Part shown: in pieces, positions 31,176 through 49,971 of the stretch
Numbering within the stretch: the stretch's first letter is position 1
Layout: every line of letters starts with the position of its first letter
Assembly (NCBI GenBank): GCA_021604005.1
Contig: BQIV01000001.1
Span: 186,001 to 250,000, forward strand
Source of the DNA: Nitrospirales bacterium
GTDB taxonomy: Bacteria; Nitrospirota; Nitrospiria; Nitrospirales; UBA8639
Direction of reading: 5' to 3'
Length of the DNA: 64,000 nucleotides
Position numbers and translations under genes: made by a program
Notes under the pieces: model-generated
What the model was told of the DNA's origin: nothing
Seen by the model: the letters and a program-made list of their open reading frames with translations, nothing else
Database searches by the model: none

Positions 31176-31397
31176 TCAGTGACCACTAGGTGGGTTTTGT
31201 GCCGCGGCGTCTCGAATTTGGGAATATAGTGTCGAACTCAAAGAAGGATCGTTGTCTAGGCCAATGAAATGCCTTACTTGAGCAGCATTTCCACGAGATT
31301 CCGATCGTTCAATTGGTACATCTGAGGTAAAGTAGCCGTCGTTTTGTGGTAGAGCCCACAGATTCGTGAAGGGTCTCATTATCATTCCGTCTCTCAC
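31176..31397 (-). CDS. Small unknown protein coupled to flgK
   Basis: 73 residues. Its ATG overlaps the stop of flgK by 4 bases (ATGA), which favours a real, translationally coupled gene. It does not look like FlgL, FliW or CsrA, the usual neighbours of flgK. No domain, signal peptide or membrane helix is visible. Between this frame and copA (30,812-31,175) I see no gene that I can support. Confidence 0.35.
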   Translation of the reverse strand: MRDGMIMRPFTNLWALPQNDGYFTSDVPIERSESRGNAAQVRHFIGLDNDPSLSSTLYSQIRDAAAQNPPSGH

Positions 31398-33055
31398 CGA
31401 CGACCTAACGACAAAACAGTTTGTAATAATTCGTCGGCTAGGGTAAGCAAACGTGCTGAAGCTTCAAACCCACGCTGAAATGTCAGAAGATTCGTCAGCT
31501 CTTCATCCAATGAGACACCCGACACACTTTCCCGAAACGTCTCGACCTGCTCCGTTTCCGCTTCTTTGGCATCCAGAGAAAGACTGACTTCCCGTGTGGT
31601 ACTTCCCACATTACCAGCCGTAATTGTGTGATAATCATTGAGCGTGACATTCCCTAACGTACTTTGGCGGGTGGTATGAATATCCACTAGAGCAAGGGCG
31701 TTGACGTTATTGCCGGGAATGCCCGTTGATGTGGAAGACGTTGAAATATCATCCGTATCGGTAAGGGCGACCGAAAGATCGGCGGCAGCCCCTTTATGGG
31801 CACTCACGTTGAAGACATCCCCGGCGGCAGGAGGGCCGGTACTGTTGCTAATCACCGCCGTGAGACCATCAAACACAATGTTGTTTCCTGAGGTATAAGT
31901 CTGGGCACTCAAAACAGTGGTTCCATTCGTCGCATCCAGTACGTCAAATGTGGTGGAGTTGGTGAATGATATCTGATAGGTACTGAAGGTCAGAGAACTG
32001 GCGGTCGATACGGAAACAGATGTGCCTGCCGCCCCACCAGTATTGCTGTCGCTGGCTATCGGAGCATCGGGACTGAGTGCTGTAAAAAACACATTGCCCG
32101 TGTCTCCATCTAAGTCATAACCTGCTTGGTGTTGTTGATTGAACTCATTGACCAAGACGCCCACGGTTCGATCCAAACGATCTTGGAATCCGACAACATC
32201 CGTATCGCGAAGAGTCAGGAGGCCATTTACCCTTCCATCATTGATTCTGGATGTGATGACCAATTGCGTCCCGTCGCTTCGGACAAAGGCTATGTCGTTC
32301 AATGGTGGATTATCGGCATCCGGGGTTTGCAGGAGCGTATTGGCTTGATTCCCACTGACCAATAATTGTCCGCCAACCATAATGGCCAAACCATCCCTCA
32401 TGTCCACTTCCGAGACATCGATCAGTTCAGCCATTTCATTCACACGAAGTTGACGTTGATCACGAAGATCGTGTGCGGCTCCACCACTCGCTTCCGCACG
32501 AAAAATGGAGTCATTCAATGTGGCAATCTCGGCAGCCAAACTGTTGATCGTCGTGAGATGCCGACCAATTTCGCCATCGGCATCCCGACGGATTTGATCC
32601 AAGGATGCGGCAGCTCGATTCACATCATCAACCAATGAATTGGCTTTTCCAAGAAGAACCGTTCGCTGCACCGTCCCCTCAGGATTGGTTGCCAGATCAC
32701 GCACCGCATTAAAAAATTCCGTGAGTCCATAAGCAATGCCGCTGTTTTCGCCCTCGGTAAAGATCCCATCGGCTTGTACCAAGAAATTGTGCCGGGCATC
32801 AAGTCGTCCTACGTCCTCTTTGAGTTTCGTGATTTGTTTTTCCAAGAAGACATCGACATTCCGTCGAATTTCATTGACACGCACACCGGAGGCTTCCTGC
32901 CCATTCGCCGGTGATGCGGTTTCCAACACGACTTCTTGTCTGGAATACCCCTTGGTCTCAATGTTACTGATGTTGTGTGCGGTTGTGGCGAGGCCCTGCT
33001 GGTTGGCTCGGATGCCCGAACGCGCAATATTGAAGATATCACTAATCCCTGCCAT
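31394..33055 (-). CDS. flgK: Flagellar hook-associated protein 1
   Basis: 553 residues. The N-terminal flagellar rod/hook motif is clear (LATTAHNISNIETKGYSRQE, about 22-41). The middle is Ser/Thr-rich and variable, and the C terminus has the closing helix of the family (ELTNLLTFQRGFEASARLL). It forms the junction between hook and filament outside the cell. The start is behind GTAGGGGTCAA. It is complete, but no flagellar neighbour is seen in the window, which is unusual; a sigma-28-type promoter lies 134 bases upstream. Confidence 0.92.
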   Translation of the reverse strand: MAGISDIFNIARSGIRANQQGLATTAHNISNIETKGYSRQEVVLETASPANGQEASGVRVNEIRRNVDVFLEKQITKLKEDVGRLDARHNFLVQADGIFTEGENSGIAYGLTEFFNAVRDLATNPEGTVQRTVLLGKANSLVDDVNRAAASLDQIRRDADGEIGRHLTTINSLAAEIATLNDSIFRAEASGGAAHDLRDQRQLRVNEMAELIDVSEVDMRDGLAIMVGGQLLVSGNQANTLLQTPDADNPPLNDIAFVRSDGTQLVITSRINDGRVNGLLTLRDTDVVGFQDRLDRTVGVLVNEFNQQHQAGYDLDGDTGNVFFTALSPDAPIASDSNTGGAAGTSVSVSTASSLTFSTYQISFTNSTTFDVLDATNGTTVLSAQTYTSGNNIVFDGLTAVISNSTGPPAAGDVFNVSAHKGAAADLSVALTDTDDISTSSTSTGIPGNNVNALALVDIHTTRQSTLGNVTLNDYHTITAGNVGSTTREVSLSLDAKEAETEQVETFRESVSGVSLDEELTNLLTFQRGFEASARLLTLADELLQTVLSLGRR

Positions 33056-33631: not shown

Positions 33632-34651
33632 ATGAACCCATTGTACGGCGGCATTGATTTACATGCCAACAACAGTGTGCTTGTCCTCATCGATGAACAG
33701 GATCAGAGCGTGTTCGACAAGCGACTTCCGAATGACCTCACCAAGATTCTGCGTCAACTCCGTCCCTATCAACGAAGACTCCAAGGCCTCGTGGTGGAGT
33801 CGACCTATAATTGGTATTAGCTGGTGGATGGGCTCATGGAAGCCGGCTACACCGTCCGGTTAGCCAACACGGCAGCCATCAAGCAATACGAAGGGCTGAA
33901 ACATACCAATGATCAGCGGGATGCGCGATGGTTAGCGCAGCTTTTGCGGCTCGGCATTCTGCCCACCGGCTATATCTATCCGAAAGAAGAGCGTGCGGTC
34001 CGCGATCTTTTGCGGAAACGTAGTCACCTGGTACGGCAGAAGACAGCCAATCTCCTGAGTGTGCATAATCTCGTGACGCGGAATACAGGGACCGCTCTGA
34101 GCGGCCATCGTCTGAAGACGCTGACGGCAGAGCAAGTGACTGACTTGCTCCCGAGCACCGAGCTGGCGTTGGCGGTCACGAGTACGCTGACCGTGATCCG
34201 TTGTGTGGTCGAGCAGATTGCCGCACTCGACCAGACTCTCAAGGCCCGGGTGTCGCTCCGGCCTCGCTTTTGCCACTTACTCACGGTCGCAGGCATTGGC
34301 CAGACGTTGGCCTTGACGATCATGTTGGAAGCGGGCGAAATGCACCGCTTTCCGACAGTGGGTCAGTGGGCGTCCTATTGTCGGTGTGTGAACAGCACCA
34401 AACTGAGCAATGGGAAACGCAAAGGCCAAGGGAATACAAAGAACGGGAACAAGTATTTAGCCTGGGTGTTTATTGAAGCGGCCAATCATGCCGTGCGGTA
34501 CTATCCGCCTATTCAGCGGTTCTATCAGCGCAAAGCCAGCCAGACGAAGCGAGTCGTGGCAATCAAAGCTGTGGCGCATAAGTTAGCCCGCGCGTGCTAT
34601 TACGTGCTGCGGGATCAGGTGCCCTTCGAGATCGACAGGGCATTTGCCTAA
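33632..34651 (+). pseudogene. IS1111/IS110 transposase interrupted by one TAG
   Basis: The start ATG 33632 follows AAGGAGGAGCC. The DEDD-type N-terminal domain is present (GIDLHAN, VVESTYNWY, HTNDQRDARWLAQ) and the Transposase_20 domain with its Ser (LTVAGIGQTLALTIM, SYCRCVNSTKLSNGKRKG). The frame breaks at one in-frame TAG (33818-33820), where NWY-x-LVDGL in relatives has Trp (TGG), then continues intact to 34651. A single G-to-A change explains the break. It is probably inactive unless suppressed. Confidence 0.88.
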
Positions 34652-35076
34652 GCGGGCTGGTGATACTGGGGTGGGCCGAATGAGCTTGACTAGGGGTTGG
34701 GGCCACAACCACGAGACCTGATTGGCCATCCGCCCCACCCGCTTCTGCTCCCTTGTGCCACGGGGAGACCTGAGCTGCCTCGGGTGTGAGCCATCAAGAG
34801 GTTGGAGCCACATGGCACCCATGGGATCTGAGATCCTTACGCTTGGACACTCTCGGGCACCAAGGGTTTTCTGGGGCCAATGATTGGCCAGGGGCTGGCG
34901 AGCCCTCGTCTGCTGGCCTTGATCCTGATGGGTGACTGGTGCGACTCAGGAAACAGAGTGGACGCCACAACCAACGAAAACTCGGATGCAGTGAGGTCTT
35001 GTCCCTCGGAGCAGTGATGGAGTACAGACGGGGAACAGCGAAGACAGAAGAAGAGGAGACGTGTGCCCGCTTGACC
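34652..35076 (+). ncRNA. Candidate bridge-RNA region in the IS1111 right end
   Basis: 425 non-coding bases between the transposase stop and the right inverted repeat. In IS110-family elements a structured bridge RNA that pairs with target and donor DNA is encoded in a non-coding end, and for the IS1111 group this is the right end. The region is rich in short inverted repeats (for example GGGGTTGGGGCC/GGCCATCC-type blocks and GGCCAATGATTGGCC at about 34875). Assignment is from family knowledge and position; no structure was computed. Confidence 0.35.
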
Positions 35077-35091
35077 GGAGCCTGCTAGATG

Positions 35092-35312
35092 GGTGCCCCC
35101 CTTTGCATCCGGTACGTATCCGTACTTCTGCCGTCTCCATCCGATTATGCGGGGAACCATCATCGTAAACAGGAGCAAAAGCGAACTACGCTCTAACCCA
35201 AAAGGTAGCCCCACCTCTTAGATACTGTAATTGCGTACACCAACTGACGAGGAACTACCGTTCTCCATGGTACAAATGGGTTCTCAGGAACCCTAACCTT
35301 GGAGGAATGTTC
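35092..35312 (+). other. Non-coding left flank of the second IS110 element
   Basis: 220 bases between the right repeat of the IS1111 element and the next transposase ATG. It contains a small hairpin, GTACG-TATC-CGTAC (about 35112). In classic IS110 elements the left end upstream of the transposase encodes the bridge RNA, so this segment is where to look. The element's ends were not found by eye. Confidence 0.3.
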
Positions 35313-36368
35313 ATGAAGTATTATGCCGGACTCGATGTCTCCCTGAAAACCACTGCGGTGTGTGTGGTTGACCATGATGGGACGGTGATCAAAGAAGGAA
35401 TGGTGAACTCCGATCCGCAAACCATTACGACGTTTCTTGTCGATCTGGGCCTCGTGTTCGAGCGAGTTGGCTTGGAAGCCGGCTCCCTAGCCCCCTGGTT
35501 GTATCATGGCCTCTCCGCCTCTGGCTTGCCTGTGCTCTGCCTCGAAACTCGCCATGCGAAGGCGGCGCTCCAGGCACAGACGGTCAAGACGGATCGGAAC
35601 GATGCCCGTGGGCTTGCGCATATCATGCGGACTGGGTAGTTCAAGGCGGTGCATATCAAGAGTGAGGTCAGTCAAAAGCTGCGCGTGTTACTCAATAACC
35701 GCACCTGTCTTGTCGACAAACGGGTGGATATCAGCAACCAAATTCGTGGCACGCTGAAGGTGTTCGGGTTGAAAGTCGGGAACGTCTCAAAGGCCACGTA
35801 TGAGATTCGCATCCGCGAATTGATTAAAGGAGATACGGAGTTGGAAGCCTTCATTCTGCCGCTCCTGGCAGTCCGCCGTGTCTTGGTGGAGCAGGAACGC
35901 CATCTGGATAAAACTATCCGCGCCCGTGTCAAAGCTGATGAGGTTTGTAGGCGTCTGATGAGTGTCCCCGGAGTGGGAACTTTGACCGCCTTGGCCTTCA
36001 AGAGTGCGATCGATCAACCACGGCGGTTCCAAAAATCACGAGACGTGGGACCGCATATCGGGTTAACCCCTCGCAAATATGCGTCTGGAGAGATAGATTA
36101 CAATGGTCACATTACGAAGTGTGGCGATGCCATGTTGCGCACTTATCTGTATGAAGCGGCTCAGGTGTTACTGACTCGGGTGGGGAAATGGTCCAGGCTC
36201 AAAGCCTGGGGGCTGAAACTCGCCAAACGGAGCTCGATGAAAAATGCGTGCGTCGCTGTAGCACGCAAGCTCGCGGTGATCATGCATCGTATCTGGCTCG
36301 ATGGCACCACTTTCCAATGGGGGGCAGAGCCACGAACGTTGAGCCCTGTTATGGAATCGTTGGCATAG
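35313..36368 (+). pseudogene. IS110-family transposase interrupted by one TAG
   Basis: The start ATG 35313 follows TTGGAGGAATGTTC. It has the DEDD N-terminal domain (YYAGLDVSLKTTAVCVVD, VGLEAGSLAPWL, KTDRNDARGLAHIMRTG) and the Transposase_20 domain (LMSVPGVGTLTALAF, DVGPHIGLTPRKYASGE, KNACVAVARKLAVIMHR). One in-frame TAG at 35637-35639 replaces the Trp of the MRTGW-FKAVHIKS stretch; the frame is otherwise intact to 36368. It differs from the upstream IS1111 transposase, so this is a second, independent element broken in the same way. Confidence 0.85.
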
Positions 36369-37326: not shown

Positions 37327-37656
37327 TCAGCCTTTCTCTTTCAGAGGAATTTTGTTCAGAGCGTGCTGCAAGTTAACAAGAGGATTTGAGGTGGGAGGGT
37401 TCTCTTGAACGTCTATTTGAGTCGTGGAACGGTGTTTGGAATCTAGGTCGAGCAGGCCTATTGTATCAGGAGCTATTTGTACCGGCGGTGAAGGCTTTCC
37501 GGATTTAGGGTGTTTAGATCGTGAAGACAAGGCATTCAAGAGAATGTGTTTGATCTCACGATTTCGTTGTCTCTCAGGAATCTTCCTGATGAGTCTATAC
37601 AGATACTGGTCCTGGGCTTTGTGCTTCGAGAAATACAGGTAAAATCGAGTGCGCAT
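37327..37656 (-). CDS. ParR-like ribbon-helix-helix partition protein
   Basis: About 109 residues from ATG 37656 behind GAGG. The N-terminal part (RFYLYFSKHKAQDQYLYRLI, then RKIPERQRNREIKHILLNAL) has the strand-helix-helix pattern of RHH DNA-binding proteins such as ParR/StbB. The C-terminal half is Pro/Ser-rich and divergent, as is common for the ParM-binding tail. It lies 51 bases after parM in the same direction, the normal order of a type II partition operon. Identification is from pattern and position. Confidence 0.6.
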   Translation of the reverse strand: MRTRFYLYFSKHKAQDQYLYRLIRKIPERQRNREIKHILLNALSSRSKHPKSGKPSPPVQIAPDTIGLLDLDSKHRSTTQIDVQENPPTSNPLVNLQHALNKIPLKEKG

Positions 37657-37707
37657 CGCTGGCCTCAATCGTCAGTCACGTGACCTCATCGCGCTCGTCG
37701 ACTGTGT

Positions 37708-38754
37708 CTATGATTCCTGAGTGTGCTCATCATCTCTTTCGGCATGTTGCCATTGCGCATATTGCAGATAGCCTTTGACGTTGGCGAAGGTCGCATCTGC
37801 TAACAACCGGGCATTTGGATAAAGGACCTTAAATTCTTCTTGGAGCATCGTACTCCCACCTCCGCAGAAGACAATCTCATCAAAGTCTGACACGCGATCA
37901 TCCCATAGGCGCGTCATCTCCTGCCGAACGCTCGCGATAAAGTCTTTGCGGTCGGATCTAATGATCTCCATGACCTCATTATGGGCCAACGTTGTGCCTC
38001 GGACATGAAGTGGCTTGGTTTGTCGAAGTGCCCAGTCGATCTCGTAGGCATCGACGGTGCGACCAAGTTTCTGGCTGACAGTATAGGCTGCCTTCTGAAG
38101 CAACGTCCCAATACCCATCACAAGACCCGTGGAAGACCGAGGAAGAAACTGCGTGCCTGACATGCCAATCAGTTCGGTGGTCCGCATCCCGATGTCTACG
38201 AGAGCAATCCGGCAGCCCTGCAACTCTGGATATTGATGGAGCACATGACAATAGGCCCCGATCCCTTGGGATAACACCTCGACATGTTTGGCACGGAGGA
38301 TGTGCTTCACCAACGCTTGAACCTGTGATTGGGCTTTCGTGGCGGTGTAAATGTGGAGGGGTAATCCTGTGACGAGGAATGAGCCTGAAGGGATGTGTCG
38401 TTGGGCAAACGCGACTAAGGCCTGGTAGGCTGGAGACCCCCACCAAGAATCATACTGCTCGCGAAAACGAAACGCGGCCGTCACTGCATCTTCTCCCACC
38501 TGATATTGTTGGCCTTCAAGGTCCACGACGTTGTGTTGATCTCCGAGCACCAACGAAATTGATGTCGGCTCGATCGGAGAGACGACCGAGGGATAGGACA
38601 CGACCCGATCCTCGCAGGAAATTTTGACATAGCCATATCCAACATCGAGGCCCACGAGTGTGGGAGGCGCAGAAGGTGAAGATTTTCTGGTCTTTGTGGT
38701 CTGGGGTTTGCGGCTTAATGGCGAAGGTGGTGTCGCTAGGGTTTTGTCGTTCAT
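37708..38754 (-). CDS. parM: ParM/StbA-type actin-like plasmid segregation ATPase
   Basis: 348 residues. After a 32-residue Pro/Thr/Ser/Lys-rich leader, the actin-fold motifs appear in order: phosphate-1 VGLDVGYGYVKI (about 34), the VTGLPLHIY segment (about 128), phosphate-2 ALVDIGMRTTEL (about 184), and the adenosine motif EIVFCGGGSTML (about 296). ParM filaments push sister plasmids apart. ATG 38754 follows GAAGGAGTC. The RHH-like gene is downstream and repeated TGTGCG motifs are upstream, forming a complete parMRC-like unit. Confidence 0.85.
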   Translation of the reverse strand: MNDKTLATPPSPLSRKPQTTKTRKSSPSAPPTLVGLDVGYGYVKISCEDRVVSYPSVVSPIEPTSISLVLGDQHNVVDLEGQQYQVGEDAVTAAFRFREQYDSWWGSPAYQALVAFAQRHIPSGSFLVTGLPLHIYTATKAQSQVQALVKHILRAKHVEVLSQGIGAYCHVLHQYPELQGCRIALVDIGMRTTELIGMSGTQFLPRSSTGLVMGIGTLLQKAAYTVSQKLGRTVDAYEIDWALRQTKPLHVRGTTLAHNEVMEIIRSDRKDFIASVRQEMTRLWDDRVSDFDEIVFCGGGSTMLQEEFKVLYPNARLLADATFANVKGYLQYAQWQHAERDDEHTQES

Positions 38755-38904: not shown

Positions 38905-38940
38905 GTGTGTGCGCAGTTTTGTGCGAATCTGTGCGGACAT
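38905..38940 (-). repeat. Candidate parC centromere repeats
   Basis: TGTGCG occurs three times at 38908, 38920 and 38930, so 12 and 10 bp apart, close to one DNA helical turn. A related TCTGCACAGA block lies at about 38973. ParR proteins bind direct repeats of about 10-12 bp upstream of parM, and this array lies about 150 bases upstream of the parM start, so it is a good centromere candidate. A replication iteron is the alternative. Confidence 0.45.
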
Positions 38941-39060
38941 AACAATATATAGAATATATGTCCCTCACTCTGCACAGACTTTGAGAGCGTAATATTGCGG
39001 TAAGAGAAAAATGCGTGAGCCACTGGCGTTTGACTATACCGCCAAAAAGGATGATCAAGC

Positions 39061-39420
39061 ATGAGCAGGGGGGTTCAAAACATGTCCGGAATCGCTGAGG
39101 CCTTCTGGGATGAATTCGGGGTGCTCATCAATAAGATCAAAGCTGAGGCACCGGATCTTCTCCCTCGATGTAATGAACACCTCAGTCTGTACATTGAGGA
39201 ACAGTATCGTTGGGAATCGTTGGAGATGCGCATCGAAGAAGTCTTTGTGCGGCACCCTGAATGGACCCCCAGGAAGATGGCTGAGCACATCCGGTATTAC
39301 CAACGCATGCCGAATTCCATGCGACCGCTCATCGTGAAGCGAGCGCAAAAGGTGAAGAATCGTCTCCGGATGCGGAAACAGCGTCAGGATGGTGAGAGCG
39401 AGCGAGACGGTGACGTATGA
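39061..39420 (+). CDS. Small helical protein coupled to exonuclease VII-like gene
   Basis: 119 residues from ATG 39061 (ATG 39082, behind GGGGGG, is an alternative). It is highly charged and predicted helical, with a basic C terminus (KRAQKVKNRLRMRKQRQ) that may bind nucleic acid. Its stop overlaps the next start by 4 bases (ATGA), implying coupled translation. It could serve as a small partner of the XseA-like protein, as XseB does for XseA, but it has no clear XseB similarity. Confidence 0.55.
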   Translation: MSRGVQNMSGIAEAFWDEFGVLINKIKAEAPDLLPRCNEHLSLYIEEQYRWESLEMRIEEVFVRHPEWTPRKMAEHIRYYQRMPNSMRPLIVKRAQKVKNRLRMRKQRQDGESERDGDV

Positions 39421-40454
39421 CTGAAGCTTGCCATTCAAAAACCGATCATCATGTTCTAGGACTCAAGGGTGTCCTAGCGCTGTATCAACGTGGCATGGAG
39501 GCATTTCTTCAGCGCGAGAATCAGATGCTCCCTGTGACGATGCGAGGCATCGTGGTGCAGAAAAAATTTCGAGAGAAACCGCGTGGCGTGTGGCAATATT
39601 TTACCATCGAGGATCGTGGCGTCAGTCTGGAGGCCAGGGCACAATCAACCATGGATTTGCCATGGAATCAAGAAGTGCAGTTACTCGTGCTGCTAGGGAT
39701 CGCAGGGTGGATGCAGAATCGACTCGTCCCACAGCTGGAGGTCCTGAGTGTGCGGCGACGCGAAGGCCGGCGGCGTATCAGTCACGATGAACGACGTATC
39801 AAATGGGAGGCTGCCATTCGCCAGCCTAAACGAGACGTCGAAAGTGTGTTTGTCGCTCACAAGCCACTGGTGCTGATCGTGACTTCAGATGTTGGTGAGG
39901 CTTGGACCGATGTGAGTACACCTTTGGCAGAATATCGAGAGGCCATCGATCTACAACGGATGTCAGTTCGAGTATCCGATCCACAAGCGGTGGGTCAAGT
40001 GCTCCAGCATGCCTGGCAGAAACAGCCGACACCCGAACTGCTCATTCTTACTCGCGGAGGGGGCGACGCTGTGGTGAATCTGGATGATGACGAACTCATT
40101 CAACTCGTTACTCAGCGGCCCATTCCCATCGTGACAGCAATTGGTCATACACGGGATCATCTTATCCTGGATCAAGTCGCCGACAAATCATTCGCGACCC
40201 CACGGGACTGCGGTCTCTGGCTACGGGACGGACTCGCCCGCGCGCGACGCCGACACCAGGAAGCCCTGGATGCCAAGGAGCGGAAAGCCCATCAACAACT
40301 TCTGGTAGTCATAGGAGAGCGGAACCAATTGAAGGAGGGCCAAGTGCAACTGCGGCGGGACCTCCAGCGAGCTCGCCGACACACGGTTGCACTAGCTATT
40401 GTGTTTGGTATGGCCTTGCTGACGTTCGCCTATCTCTTTCTAGGATCAATCTAA
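39417..40454 (+). CDS. Membrane-anchored exonuclease VII large subunit-like protein
   Basis: 345 residues. Residues about 38-105 resemble an OB-fold (TMRGIVVQKKFREKPRGVWQ), as at the XseA N terminus. Residues about 145-265 carry the XseA core signature (LLILTRGGGDAVVNLDDDEL, then IPIVTAIGHTRDHLILDQVA and ATP). In XseA this region reads RGGGS..DL and GHE.D..I.D.VAD...PTP. The long coiled-coil of XseA is shortened and ends in one transmembrane helix (about 326-343). A membrane-tethered ExoVII-like nuclease on a plasmid-like element is not something I recognise as described. The HE-to-HT change could alter catalysis. Confidence 0.7.
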   Translation: MTEACHSKTDHHVLGLKGVLALYQRGMEAFLQRENQMLPVTMRGIVVQKKFREKPRGVWQYFTIEDRGVSLEARAQSTMDLPWNQEVQLLVLLGIAGWMQNRLVPQLEVLSVRRREGRRRISHDERRIKWEAAIRQPKRDVESVFVAHKPLVLIVTSDVGEAWTDVSTPLAEYREAIDLQRMSVRVSDPQAVGQVLQHAWQKQPTPELLILTRGGGDAVVNLDDDELIQLVTQRPIPIVTAIGHTRDHLILDQVADKSFATPRDCGLWLRDGLARARRRHQEALDAKERKAHQQLLVVIGERNQLKEGQVQLRRDLQRARRHTVALAIVFGMALLTFAYLFLGSI

Positions 40455-40497: not shown

Positions 40498-40956
40498 TCA
40501 CTCTGGAATAATCACGGTATGCGGAAGTTGACGTTCACTGACCATCGAAAGCATGTGTTCCGTGCCGCGTGACTCGCCATCCCAAAAGAGCAAGATGTGA
40601 AAGAAGTCAGCTATTTTGACCAGTTCATTCAGCATATCGGTGTTTCGCTTCATCCCTGCGGATCGGCCATACCTCTCCCACTGTGCGGAACGACGAAAGA
40701 CGGTGGCTCCACACTTTTGAGCTTCCTCCGCACACCAGGAATCGACTCCTCGCGCCCCACCATGGAGGAGCGTGTCCGTCGGTTGCACGATTGCTCGCAT
40801 GGTTTCTCGGACAAGGGTCTCATTGGGAAAATCTCGACTACCTGAGACCAGAAACCACATAGCTGATCGCGGTTGAGATAAGTACTTGATGATTACCAAA
40901 CGATCTTGAGCGATGTAGTCCTTGAACGACCTGCCATGGTGTATATTCTGATTCAT
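40498..40956 (-). CDS. SLOG-family (DUF2493/YspA-like) protein
   Basis: 152 residues. The core from about residue 32 (MWFLVSGSRDFPNETLV, LLHGGARGVDSWCAEEA, WERYGRSAGMKRNTDML) matches DUF2493, a Rossmann-like SLOG fold that binds nucleotide-derived ligands. Such proteins are frequent on phages and plasmids and may sense signalling nucleotides. The start follows GGGAGGGC. A GNA-loop hairpin lies 50 bases upstream of the start. Confidence 0.82.
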   Translation of the reverse strand: MNQNIHHGRSFKDYIAQDRLVIIKYLSQPRSAMWFLVSGSRDFPNETLVRETMRAIVQPTDTLLHGGARGVDSWCAEEAQKCGATVFRRSAQWERYGRSAGMKRNTDMLNELVKIADFFHILLFWDGESRGTEHMLSMVSERQLPHTVIIPE

Positions 40957-41305: not shown

Positions 41306-41620
41306 TTAGAGGTTGGATTCGTTATCGTGTTCGTTCATGCCGCAACCTTTACAGGCGTCGATGTTATAAAAGATATCATTGGCAAAGTTAGGAGAAGGAT
41401 TGGCGAGACACAACGTCTCCGGGCGGGAACCGTGGAGAAACGGACATCGGCGAATACGATGCCCGATCTGTGGAGGAGGCAATGCCTGGAGGACTGAGTA
41501 ACAATATGGCCCGTGAGGAATGTGGCGTTGTAAAGCCTCGTGATCAAGCGAGAGCGCTTCGCGTCGCCTAGCCCAATCGTCATCCGATAGAGGCTGAACG
41601 AACGAGCTGTTATCGTCCAT
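41306..41620 (-). CDS. Small Cys-rich protein, unknown
   Basis: 104 residues from ATG 41620, overlapping the end of the upstream gene by 11 bases (TGATGGACGATAA context). Cysteines at PYCYS, RRCPF, TLCLA and DACKGCG suggest a zinc-binding fold. No family was recognised. The coupling implies joint function with the DUF488-like neighbour. Confidence 0.5.
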   Translation of the reverse strand: MDDNSSFVQPLSDDDWARRREALSLDHEALQRHIPHGPYCYSVLQALPPPQIGHRIRRCPFLHGSRPETLCLANPSPNFANDIFYNIDACKGCGMNEHDNESNL

Positions 41621-41933
41621 CACAAAACCGCTCGGGCCAATGCCTGACGGCATACTCAATAATCAAGTGCGTATGACAAAACCAGCCATCGCGGCAGTAA
41701 CACAACAGCGTCGCATGCTCATGCTGCGCCAAGGTATCCCAAACCTTAGCTTTGACATTCGTCAGAATGTCAGAGTACTGCTCGGTGTACTGCGTCTCTG
41801 AAATTTTCCCATCTTTCACACCCATCACCATGGCCCACGTGGGCGCGAAAGCTTTCCACAAGCCCTTCGCCGATTTGACTGTCGTATCGATGCCTTCGGC
41901 CTTGCCAATTTGTGCACGACGTAAGATGGTCAT
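41610..41933 (-). CDS. DUF488-like small protein
   Basis: About 107 residues. The start is taken as ATG 41933 behind AAGGAGGAGATG; the frame is open to 41993, but that extension would translate the GNA-loop hairpin. The C-terminal stretch ATLLCYCRDGWFCHTHLIIE matches the conserved end of DUF488-like proteins (LLC.C.....CHR..). The function is unknown. It is common on plasmids and phages next to other small Cys proteins. Confidence 0.65.
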   Translation of the reverse strand: MTILRRAQIGKAEGIDTTVKSAKGLWKAFAPTWAMVMGVKDGKISETQYTEQYSDILTNVKAKVWDTLAQHEHATLLCYCRDGWFCHTHLIIEYAVRHWPERFCDGR

Positions 41934-41975
41934 CATCTCCTCCTTGTGTGTCTGTAACACAAAGAGTGGAAGCTT

Positions 41976-41990
41976 GCCCACGAAGTGGGC
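41976..41990 (+). repeat. GNA-loop hairpin, copy 3
   Basis: GCCCAC-GAA-GTGGGC, preceded by CTT on the plus strand like most copies. It lies 43 bases upstream of the DUF488-like start on the minus strand. Confidence 0.7.
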
Positions 41991-42190
41991 CATCGATGAG
42001 ACTAACGAGGTATTCGGATATTCGGACGTGGGCCTCGCCGTGTCATACGTCTCAAGATATCCAGAATCCGAATGAACCAGGTGCGGAAGGGAGAGTCTTG
42101 AAGGCGTCGTTGAAACCAGATACGCATCGTCACCTCCATCTCAGAGTTAGAACAATTATGCTGAGCAGATACAATGGGGCTTGGACCACA

Positions 42191-42247: not shown

Positions 42248-42616
42248 TTATGTGTGCTGCACCTTCTTTTTCTTCACACTCATCTCAAACGCTTGTACCT
42301 CCAGTTTACTCCGTTTCTCGCCTTCGTCCGTTTCCCACGATCGGAAATTGAGTTTACCTTTCACTTCGACCCAGTCCCCCTTGTCTGCTTGTTGGGAAAA
42401 TGGCTCACCTTTCTCGCCATACATGACGACAGAGACCCAGTGGGTTCGATCCTGAATATCGCCATCTTTCTCCCACTGCTCCTTGATCGCTATGTTGGTA
42501 TTGATCACCATGGTCCCAGACTGGGTATATCGAACTTCTGGTGTATGGGCTAACCGACCGGTAAAGTGGACGGCATTTTTGTCGCTGAATGTTCTGGTAG
42601 AAGTTTCTGTAGACAT
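42248..42616 (-). CDS. ssb: Single-stranded DNA-binding protein 1
   Basis: 122 residues, an OB-fold without the usual acidic C-terminal tail. Motifs: NAVHFTGRLAHTPEVRYTQSG, WVSVVMYGEKGE and DWVEVKGKLNFRSWETDEGE. It binds ssDNA during replication or transfer. The missing DDxPF-type tip suggests it does not recruit host partners in the usual way. Start behind GAGGAGGC. A GNA-loop hairpin lies 54 bases upstream. A second, different ssb lies at 49,630. Confidence 0.88.
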   Translation of the reverse strand: MSTETSTRTFSDKNAVHFTGRLAHTPEVRYTQSGTMVINTNIAIKEQWEKDGDIQDRTHWVSVVMYGEKGEPFSQQADKGDWVEVKGKLNFRSWETDEGEKRSKLEVQAFEMSVKKKKVQHT

Positions 42617-45719: not shown

Positions 45720-45829
45720 CGAGGATTTGCACCTTGACGTGGGAATGAAAAGAGAAAAAGGGGATTGACAAGCCGCACGAAAAGCGCGACACTAGAATAC
45801 TCTATTTGGTTCTGTAGGCATTCGCCGAA

Positions 45830-46060
45830 ACTTTTTTTTCAGTCTCCCGTCACATTTCCGGTCTTTCTGTCGCGTCATCTTTTTATTGGGATGATGCACT
45901 GTCTTTAGTAAGTTTCTCGTTGTAATTTTTCGTCTTCTCGTCCTTCCATCCGGTCCGTTCATCTCACTCGTTTCTGTCTGTCCTGTCACACTAATCGTCA
46001 GTCATCAACTCGTCGCTGCTGATTGTCGTTCGTCATGATCAATTCTTACGAATGACTCAA
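45830..46060 (+). other. Pyrimidine-rich non-coding tract with repeated CGTC/CGTT
   Basis: About 230 bases in which T and C dominate the plus strand and CGTC/CGTT recurs many times (for example TTCGTCTTCTCGTCC and GTCGTTCGTCATGATC). No gene is credible here. It lies between divergent genes. Strand-biased tracts of this kind can act as origin or transfer sites or as strongly curved promoter DNA, but nothing specific is shown. Confidence 0.4.
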
Positions 46061-46120
46061 CGGCTTTGTCTGTCTTTCACCAGGATCTATTTCAGATCGT
46101 TTCTCGTCAGGAGGTATCCT

Positions 46121-46327
46121 ATGTCGTATCCACTGTCTCAAAAAGAACAAGATGCGTGGCGGACGTTTCTCGGGGATCGTCGTCATGTGCATCTCACCCG
46201 TCGTCACTTGTTTGACCGCGTGTTGGAACAGCCGGACATGGTCAAACAGTATCTCAGCACGTTACCGGAGGAGCAGATTCAGGAGGAAGGTCTGTTGCGG
46301 AAATTACAGAAGATGGTCACTCAGTGA
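46121..46327 (+). CDS. Small helical protein, unknown
   Basis: 68 residues from ATG 46121 behind TCAGGAGGTATCCT. Charged and helical (TFLGDRRHVHLTRRHLFDRV, then EEQIQEEGLLRKLQKM). No family was recognised. Its end overlaps the convergent gene by 7 bases. Confidence 0.5.
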   Translation: MSYPLSQKEQDAWRTFLGDRRHVHLTRRHLFDRVLEQPDMVKQYLSTLPEEQIQEEGLLRKLQKMVTQ

Positions 46328-46704
46328 AGCATCTCGTAGCCCTGCCGCACTTTTCTCCCGCACGGCAAGCAGAAGTACCACATAGAAGGGATTGACTGCT
46401 TCGCGTCGTACTCAAACTCCCACGTGTCTGGGTCATCACAGTCTTCACCCGTCGAACGTTTTCCATCCAATCGTCGTCGGCATTCGGAACAGATCACGGG
46501 CTTCCCAAGAAAACCGATTGAAGCCAGGAGTCGATCATAAAATCGGCGCAATCGGCATTTGAAGGACGCATCAAGAACTGTTCCCGTGTCGTGGGCATGT
46601 TGGAGCGTTCTCGCCAATTCTTCCCATTCTGATCGTAACGGTTCATCTAGATCCGTCTGCAGATCAAGCAGGGTAACGTTTATCTTTTCGTCGTTTGTAC
46701 CCAT
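46321..46704 (-). CDS. Zinc-ribbon-like hypothetical protein
   Basis: 127 residues. A C-x-x-C pair in VICSECRRRLDG (about residue 71) and another in YFCLPCGRKVRQG (about 112) would form one zinc ribbon. The N-terminal half is helical. It may bind nucleic acid. It is divergent from the large zinc-knuckle protein that starts at 46,770. Confidence 0.55.
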   Translation of the reverse strand: MGTNDEKINVTLLDLQTDLDEPLRSEWEELARTLQHAHDTGTVLDASFKCRLRRFYDRLLASIGFLGKPVICSECRRRLDGKRSTGEDCDDPDTWEFEYDAKQSIPSMWYFCLPCGRKVRQGYEMLH

Positions 46705-46769
46705 TCAATCAATCGTCACTCTTTAATCTTTTCTGGTGCCCATTGGCATCCATTGAAAGGAGATCAGTC

Positions 46770-48035
46770 ATGATGTCTTCTACCACAGTCAATACGTCGC
46801 ATGCAGTATCTCTAGTCAGGCAACCCATTGATCAGGAAGCGGTGTTGGCACCCTATTTTTTCGCGCTCGAAGCGTATGAAGAACAGGACATTGAGCGACG
46901 CAATCAGCGTATGCTCAACGCGCGCACACCCTGGGAGAACCGGTTTGAGGATGAGGATCCCGACTTCGTCCCGCCGACTCCACCATCAACGTGGTTGACA
47001 CCTCGCCATTACGTTACGCTCGCCGATGGTCGACGCGCGATCCGTCTGGATGAACGTCGAGCCTTACCGCTGTGTGGGATTCAGAGCCCTGTGCTCCTCA
47101 CCGAAGCGGAACAATCGGCGAAGCCAGTCTATCAGGGCATCAAGTGTGGTGCGTGTGGAGGATTTCATCTCCCGCGTCCAATAAGAAAGCCAAAGGGTCA
47201 CACGCATGAACAAACAGTGCATACCGATGAAGACCTCGAGGTTCGGTGCCCCAAATGTCACGCATCCGTCTTAGAAGTCCAACACGAAGGTCCCTTTTTT
47301 ACTATTCACTGTTTCTGTGGATTCTGGAAAGAAGGGCAGATCACCGGTCAAGGTTTGTCACAAGCCGAACTCGATCACAACGAACGAGCTTTAGCTTCTG
47401 CGCCCGTTCGGGATTGTTCGGATGATGACGATAACGTATCTGAGGAATATGAAGGCGGCACCTTCACGGACGATCTGTTCGATGAAGCGTGTGAGAAAGG
47501 TCGAGTCGAGGTCATCGACGAGGATCTCATCCCGTTCTCGGAAGAGAGCGAGGTGCATGACGATGCTCACTCATCGACGGAAGCCACCTCAGATACCCTG
47601 TCAGAAAGTGACGAGCATCTTGTCGCGCTTGAAAACCGGTTCTGGCTGGATCATCGCGTCCGGCCATTACGCGTGGCGTTACTTGAAGCCACCGTGCTTC
47701 ACCGGATACTGGACGAAGCTGTCAATCTTGTCTGGGCGGTGGCCGCGAATCTGGCTGAATCCTGTGAGCATCTGTCGGCTGCTGCGCAACGCGAGGTCGC
47801 CGATTGGTTATGCCAGGCGTATCCCGAGGATCTCGAAGGACTCCTTCCTGAACAAGAAGACCAAGAGAACTCAGGTGTGTCTCGGCAGCTTCCAGACATG
47901 CAACAGAAGATTCGCAAGTGGCAGCGTGCCTGTCGCGACCGAGTTAATCGGTTTCGGTATCGGCAAGCAGGCATTCGCATACTGGCTCCAAAATTTGGTG
48001 TCAGTCAGCAAGCGTTTGCTGCAGCGTGCCAGTAA
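46770..48035 (+). CDS. Zinc-knuckle protein with acidic linker (paralogue 1), unknown family
   Basis: About 421 residues from ATG 46770 behind GAAAGGAGATC. Layout: N-terminal helical part; a conserved block YVTLADGRRAIRLDERRALPLCGI (about 75-100, split by its substitutions); Cys pairs in IKCGACGGFHL, VRCPKCHAS and IHCFCGFW; a long acidic linker (about 195-280); then a helical domain ending QAGIRILAPKFGVSQQAF, which looks like a helix-turn-helix. The minus-strand protein at 50,087 has the same layout and motifs. It could be a plasmid transcription or replication factor; function unknown. A strong terminator follows. Confidence 0.65.
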   Translation: MMSSTTVNTSHAVSLVRQPIDQEAVLAPYFFALEAYEEQDIERRNQRMLNARTPWENRFEDEDPDFVPPTPPSTWLTPRHYVTLADGRRAIRLDERRALPLCGIQSPVLLTEAEQSAKPVYQGIKCGACGGFHLPRPIRKPKGHTHEQTVHTDEDLEVRCPKCHASVLEVQHEGPFFTIHCFCGFWKEGQITGQGLSQAELDHNERALASAPVRDCSDDDDNVSEEYEGGTFTDDLFDEACEKGRVEVIDEDLIPFSEESEVHDDAHSSTEATSDTLSESDEHLVALENRFWLDHRVRPLRVALLEATVLHRILDEAVNLVWAVAANLAESCEHLSAAAQREVADWLCQAYPEDLEGLLPEQEDQENSGVSRQLPDMQQKIRKWQRACRDRVNRFRYRQAGIRILAPKFGVSQQAFAAACQ

Positions 48036-49629: not shown

Positions 49630-49971
49630 TTACGCCGCCTTCTTCATCGGCTTAGCCCCAAAAATCACCCTTTGAGCATGGACCTGCAGCTCATGCCGAT
49701 TGGAACCATCCTCTTCAGCACGAATCACGTGTCGTAGGTGGCCTTCGATCGTGACGACCTGACCCTTCATGCAATGACTCGCGATGTTCTCGGCCTGTTT
49801 GCCCCAGACTGTGACGGGAATAAAGTCAACTCGGGCTTCTCCGGTTTGTTTGTTGGGCAGACTATCAATGGCGAGCCGGATATTCGTCACCGGCGTCCCG
49901 CTGTTGGTATACCGAAGCTCTGGATCTTTCACTAGCCGACCTTGTTGAATGACCTTGTTGAAATTACTCAT
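49630..49971 (-). CDS. ssb: Single-stranded DNA-binding protein 2
   Basis: 113 residues, OB-fold: NFNKVIQQGRLVKDPELRYT, DFIPVTVWGKQAENIASHCM, GQVVTIEGHLRHVIRAEEDG. It is short and lacks the acidic tail. It is only distantly similar to the ssb at 42,248, so the element carries two different SSBs. Start behind TTAGGAGGTGTCTC. A related hairpin lies 88 bases upstream. Confidence 0.88.
   Translation of the reverse strand: MSNFNKVIQQGRLVKDPELRYTNSGTPVTNIRLAIDSLPNKQTGEARVDFIPVTVWGKQAENIASHCMKGQVVTIEGHLRHVIRAEEDGSNRHELQVHAQRVIFGAKPMKKAA

Follow-up and report, generated by a model that had tools for sequence, protein, structure and literature searches.

A gene encoding an XseA-like, tail-anchored protein of 345 aa was recognised at positions 39417..40454 (+ strand) of the window, i.e. 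the whole 64,000-nt stretch of Nitrospirales DNA analysed here (contig C1:186001-250000), on the basis of PF02601, hhalign, Foldseek, hydropathy and dN/dS. The predicted protein is an ExoVII-like nuclease core in which the catalytic positions are intact and the XseB-binding region has been lost. Judged by its score under the equivalog cut-off and the lack of the long XseB-binding helix and C-terminal barrel, it is not a canonical XseA. Nuclease activity, topology, substrate and biological role are what we infer from these features, and it is tentatively proposed, with a confidence somewhat short of probable, that the protein acts as a membrane-tethered, XseB-independent ssDNA nuclease serving the DNA maintenance or transfer of the mobile element that carries it.

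The sequence-only reading of this locus had described two + strand orfs overlapping by 4 bases, and these were confirmed at 39061-39420 and 39417-40454. The XseA profile search that it recommended gave 73.5 bits to Pfam Exonuc_VII_L (PF02601; E 2.7e-20, curated cut-off 35.9 bits) over residues 152-315 of the second product. The score with the xseA equivalog TIGR00237 was 74.4 bits, under the cut-off of 180. Among the PHROGs, the phage exonuclease family phrog_9454, a 395-position profile of phage proteins, matched only the nuclease core (residues 152-265, E 2.5e-12), and PADLOC gave no match for the nuclease itself. When hhalign was used against 25 canonical Nitrospirales XseA sequences, residues 38-266 were aligned with canonical residues 29-262 at a probability of 98.8%. 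The local alignment stops at residue 266, leaving 79 residues in the nuclease versus about 187 in the XseA of the same genome, whose full length is about 450 aa. The protein was divided into an OB-like domain (residues about 38-118), a nuclease core (about 148-266), a short coiled coil (about 267-322) and a C-terminal transmembrane (TM) helix. Both the OB-like N terminus and the shortened length had been noticed from the sequence, and the latter recurs in 9/9 orthologous copies.

The catalytic residues of E. coli ExoVII, which we take from the mutagenesis literature to be D155, R205, H238 and D241 (H238A is named in the PDB title of 8txr), all have equivalents in the alignments. D165 (codon 39909..39911, + strand) corresponds to D155 and is the same in 10/10 aligned rows. 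R213, corresponding to R205, opens the RGGG motif (R213-G216; 40053..40064, + strand), while H244 and D247, corresponding to H238 and D241, lie in the motif GHTRD..LDQVADK (G243-K257; 40143..40187, + strand), which reads GHTRDHLILDQVAD from G243. The XseA signatures reported earlier are therefore present. Estimates of dN/dS of 0.12-0.15 against three orthologues of about 80% identity show that the gene is under purifying selection.

The single strong hydrophobic segment of the protein is C-terminal (residues 324-342; 40386..40442, + strand), with a mean Kyte-Doolittle (KD) value of 2.47, an Arg-rich flank ahead of it and a 3-residue tail behind. The TM helix claimed for this end was found, by hydropathy, in 9/9 short copies from Nitrospirota (KD 1.58-2.91), with 3-6 Lys/Arg in the 15 residues ahead of the helix and 2-8 residues behind it. 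According to the positive-inside rule these basic residues would place the catalytic part in the cytoplasm.

An AlphaFold model of the nuclease, built from six sequences, was of medium confidence (pLDDT 63, and below 50 in the active-site loop 243-257) and comprised five strands at residues 40-118, supporting the OB-like domain, an alpha/beta core and one long helix. The ExoVII fold was recovered even at a pLDDT of only 63, since Foldseek ranked ExoVII chains of 8txr first, the three listed having E values of 2.6e-11 to 4.2e-10. The outcome that would have refuted the sequence-only reading, a predicted structure lacking this fold, did not arise. VIA-align of the model with ExoVII gave Z 10.2 over 238 residues at an rmsd of 23.6 A, the domains being differently placed.

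The gene lies on what is probably mobile DNA. An integrase-like orf (45829-47028; tyrosine type, recognised by eye, without a profile) comes after a tRNA-Lys gene at C1:45823-45898, and the last 49 bases of the tRNA gene (C1:45850-45898) recur exactly at C1:259502-259550 as direct repeats. TraU is encoded within the repeat-bounded region (263 bits, C1:84674-85618), and the adjacent TraC- and TraG-like orfs are similar to those confirmed by Pfam in genome G004, where an orthologue of the nuclease gene is present on a 48-kb contig with TraC, TraG, TraU, TraH and TrbI. Because of the repeats, the integrase-like orf and the tra genes between them, the window is placed inside a putative integrative conjugative element (ICE) of 213.7 kb with an F-type T4SS (C1:45850-259550). 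A search of the genome for relaxases, limited to the MOBH-type TraI_2, found none. The putative ICE also carries metal-resistance cargo and a gene for a FlgK-like flagellar hook-associated protein (window 31394-33055). The parM module adjoins a tandem pair of transposase-like genes (33824-36368) that were assigned by eye to the IS110 type, the second being split over two orfs.

The module itself comprises a gene for a ParM/PRTRC-D-like actin homologue (37708..38754, - strand; PF17989 and PF21522, with 95.9 bits to TIGR03739, under its cut-off) and, directly downstream, a possible ParR-like partner (37327..37668, - strand) suggested by its position and the look of its sequence, without a family match. 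Divergent from parM is the small gene (39061..39420, + strand) that overlaps the nuclease gene by 4 bases and encodes an all-helical protein of 119 aa. The region between parM and the small gene contains an interrupted palindrome, GGACATA...TATGTCC (38935..38963), mostly conserved in orthologous loci, which is possibly an operator or a centromere (parC). The small gene and the nuclease gene are probably cotranscribed; promoter and terminator scans at the locus remained near chance level and Rfam gave no match near it. In close orthologous loci a SLOG-like (YAcAr) gene, here at 40498..40956 (- strand), follows the nuclease gene convergently. An SSB gene (Pfam match) is present at window 42248-42616 and a second SSB-like orf was recognised by eye at 49630-49971. 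A DUF488 protein, encoded at 41610-41993 and conserved in parM elements, gives a weak match to the PADLOC candidate defence model PDC-M45C.

The small gene family was detected in 20 of the 396 sampled Nitrospirota genomes, and in at least 15 of the 20 a ParM-like gene was located no more than about 7 kb away, usually in divergent orientation; in 3 of the other 5 the small gene was on a short contig or at a contig end. A nuclease gene was near the small gene in only 4/20 of these genomes. The presence in other parM-carrying elements that the sequence-only reading had suggested checking thus held for some of them and failed for most. At the other loci, what comes after the small gene is a YdjM-like gene, an HD-domain gene (these also with four-base overlaps) or nothing close. 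Conversely, the nuclease gene follows the small gene in 9/9 copies, overlapping it directly in 6/9, with a YdjM-like remnant between the two in three loci. Since the small gene occurs mostly without the nuclease gene and the nuclease gene always after the small gene, the former was assigned to the ParM module and the latter regarded as a downstream accessory. Because only some of the parM/small elements possess it, the nuclease gene is not required for their transfer or maintenance, and its distribution would suit an accessory role in defence just as well. The YdjM-like membrane-protein gene looks intact in three nuclease-free elements (L070 7439-7944, L081 8382-8849, L129 9846-10133) and is broken or shortened in three elements with the nuclease gene behind it (L069, L082, L084). 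One MAG of UBA8639 has two copies of the parM-small-nuclease module, 92% identical and on separate contigs (L041, L042).

In the tentatively favoured explanation the protein would belong to a branch of proteins, carried by mobile elements, that resemble the exonuclease VII large subunit. It would have retained the OB fold, the nuclease core and the catalytic residues of that core, while a short coiled coil followed by a membrane anchor at the C terminus would have taken the place of the long XseB-binding helix and the dimerising C-terminal barrel. The anchor would hold the nuclease on the cytoplasmic side of the inner membrane, where it would work without XseB and may trim or degrade ssDNA during the maintenance or transfer of the element's own DNA. 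The small upstream gene would then encode a separate protein of the ParM module and not a nuclease subunit. A role in own-DNA maintenance or transfer is favoured because ParM, SSB, RNase H and a helicase are encoded among the neighbours and a T4SS in another part of the element, and because a Thermus plasmid of 12.9 kb, for which only 6 genes are annotated, carries a relative two genes behind ParA.

Transfer, entry exclusion and defence had all been suggested for the protein from the sequence, and its location in a T4SS-bearing integrative element is consistent with each of them. The patchy presence of the nuclease gene makes exclusion of, or defence against, incoming DNA, the chief rival reading, nearly as likely as a role in the element's own DNA metabolism; taken by itself it is a possibility that we consider real and still rather doubtful. 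The tethered nuclease would in this case degrade foreign ssDNA (conjugative T-strands, transforming or phage DNA) on entry and so protect the resident element. Such a function would fit the accessory distribution among otherwise similar elements, the predicted membrane location, the ExoVII-type core and the match of the neighbouring DUF488 gene to PDC-M45C, but the nuclease itself has no PADLOC match, the other neighbours are DNA-maintenance genes and no self-protection partner was identified.

The distribution of the nuclease was followed further in 236 genomes of the order, in which the scores were bimodal: short copies with frames of 339-392 aa scored 400-484 bits and canonical XseA proteins, with frames mostly above 430 aa, at most 97 bits. 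Nine short copies, whose proteins are all about 340-370 aa long, were found in 8 of the 236 genomes, and each of the 8 carriers had a second, canonical-type XseA match. TM-tailed short forms with the same layout were also found on plasmids of Thermus, Paenibacillus, Sulfuricystis and Azospira; a Rhodococcus relative is longer and has two hydrophobic stretches, and one from a Bacteroides plasmid has no TM tail. Two further candidates for short forms were rejected: the Neisseria match is an ordinary full-length XseA and the Acinetobacter plasmid match, an XseA of greater length, is accompanied by an annotated small subunit of its own. Viral contigs scanned with the nuclease protein and the close alignment contained no relative, and phage records gave partial matches only, of at most 45% identity among the matches listed.

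In the phylogenetic tree the Nitrospirota copies formed one clade (95/89). The Bacteroides protein and the Thermales plasmid proteins, the latter with the same tail, joined this clade (91/92), and canonical XseA stood apart. The placement of the Rhodococcus, Paenibacillus, Bacteroides and Allomeiothermus sequences is unsure owing to their long branches, and because several rows have such branches the tail may have had more than one origin. Relatives of the same layout on mobile DNA of distant bacteria suggest that the nuclease acts at the cell membrane in the service of mobile elements. The more ambitious proposal, that an undescribed lineage of tail-anchored, ExoVII-like nucleases independent of XseB has spread across phyla on ICEs and plasmids and polices ssDNA at the inner membrane as a conjugation or DNA-entry exclusion system, seems to us improbable as a whole, though worth stating.

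In the Thermus (L086), Paenibacillus, Sulfuricystis and Azospira plasmid relatives (L086, L087, L090, L093) the Asp three positions after the catalytic His is replaced by Asn, and for this reason activity may not be general. This substitution, together with the ParM or ParA genes in the neighbourhood, could point to a non-catalytic membrane tether in which the OB fold and a degenerate nuclease domain bind ssDNA and recruit the element's DNA to the membrane, e.g. for partition or transfer. However, the Arg of RGGG, the catalytic His and the Asp three after it are kept in 9/9 Nitrospirota copies, and none of the aligned copies deviates at D165. A tether is thus possible for the Asn-bearing plasmid relatives and less so for the Nitrospirota protein of the window, and overall we regard it as unlikely.

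The gene order also raised the question whether the small protein could bind the short coiled coil as XseB binds XseA, giving a two-subunit enzyme, as had been proposed from the overlapping genes. The close linkage described above, with all nine nuclease genes behind a small gene, is the argument in its favour. It is opposed by the lack of any match of the small protein to XseB (PF02609) at E up to 1, by the usual occurrence of the small family without the nuclease, with YdjM-like or HD genes or nothing following instead, and by the YdjM-like remnant that separates the two genes in three loci. The only PF02609 match of the genome is on contig C5. A profile search with the small protein returned only a sub-threshold HTH_32 match, and no plasmid relatives of it were found. 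Its predicted structure (four helices, pLDDT 83) gave no significant fold match. The helical character ascribed to the protein was thereby borne out, but its basic charge is not a conserved trait, the pI of the orthologues ranging from 5.9 to 9.7. The XseB-XseA-like pairing was consequently abandoned as very improbable. Finally, the idea that the gene is a chromosomal xseA copy in decay and truncated at its C terminus, to which the short length might point, scarcely deserves consideration in view of the identity of only about 26% to the XseA of the same genome and the separate clade, and is refuted by the dN/dS of about 0.12 and the conserved TM tail absent from XseA.

If the favoured reading of a membrane-tethered, XseB-independent nuclease is true, scattered relatives that dispense with XseB and the scaffold and tether the core to the membrane would show what a minimal ExoVII core is able to do, and would draw attention to an unstudied means by which ssDNA is handled or excluded by mobile elements at the cell envelope. 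The family lends itself to direct tests, and the Thermus plasmids offer a tractable laboratory relative.

The kinship to XseA is known in kind, and the tail-anchored, XseB-free, mobile-element-borne layout appears to be undescribed in the open literature: the search, which covered open papers and not subscription ones, returned no account of membrane-anchored or mobile-element XseA-like proteins. The four plasmid proteins with the same tail (Thermus pHB5002c, Paenibacillus pSb31l, Sulfuricystis pSTJ1 and Azospira pAZI09), annotated as 'exodeoxyribonuclease VII large subunit', share the domain order, the length of about 340-350 aa and the C-terminal hydrophobic helix with the nuclease, but are only 20-24% identical to it in the aligned rows and have other neighbour genes. 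In ExoVII itself, numerous XseB subunits assemble with XseA on a long scaffold of helix and barrel. A canonical xseA (342 bits, 452-aa frame) and an xseB lie near each other on another contig of the genome, so the XseA-like nuclease is an additional gene. With E. coli XseA (8txr, TIGR00237) it has in common the OB-like N-terminus, the nuclease core, the RGGG and GH..D motifs and the equivalents of D155, R205, H238 and D241. Unlike XseA, it lacks the long XseB-binding helix, the C-terminal barrel and an XseB partner, scores far under the xseA equivalog cut-off, is encoded by a putative mobile element and ends in a predicted C-terminal TM anchor.
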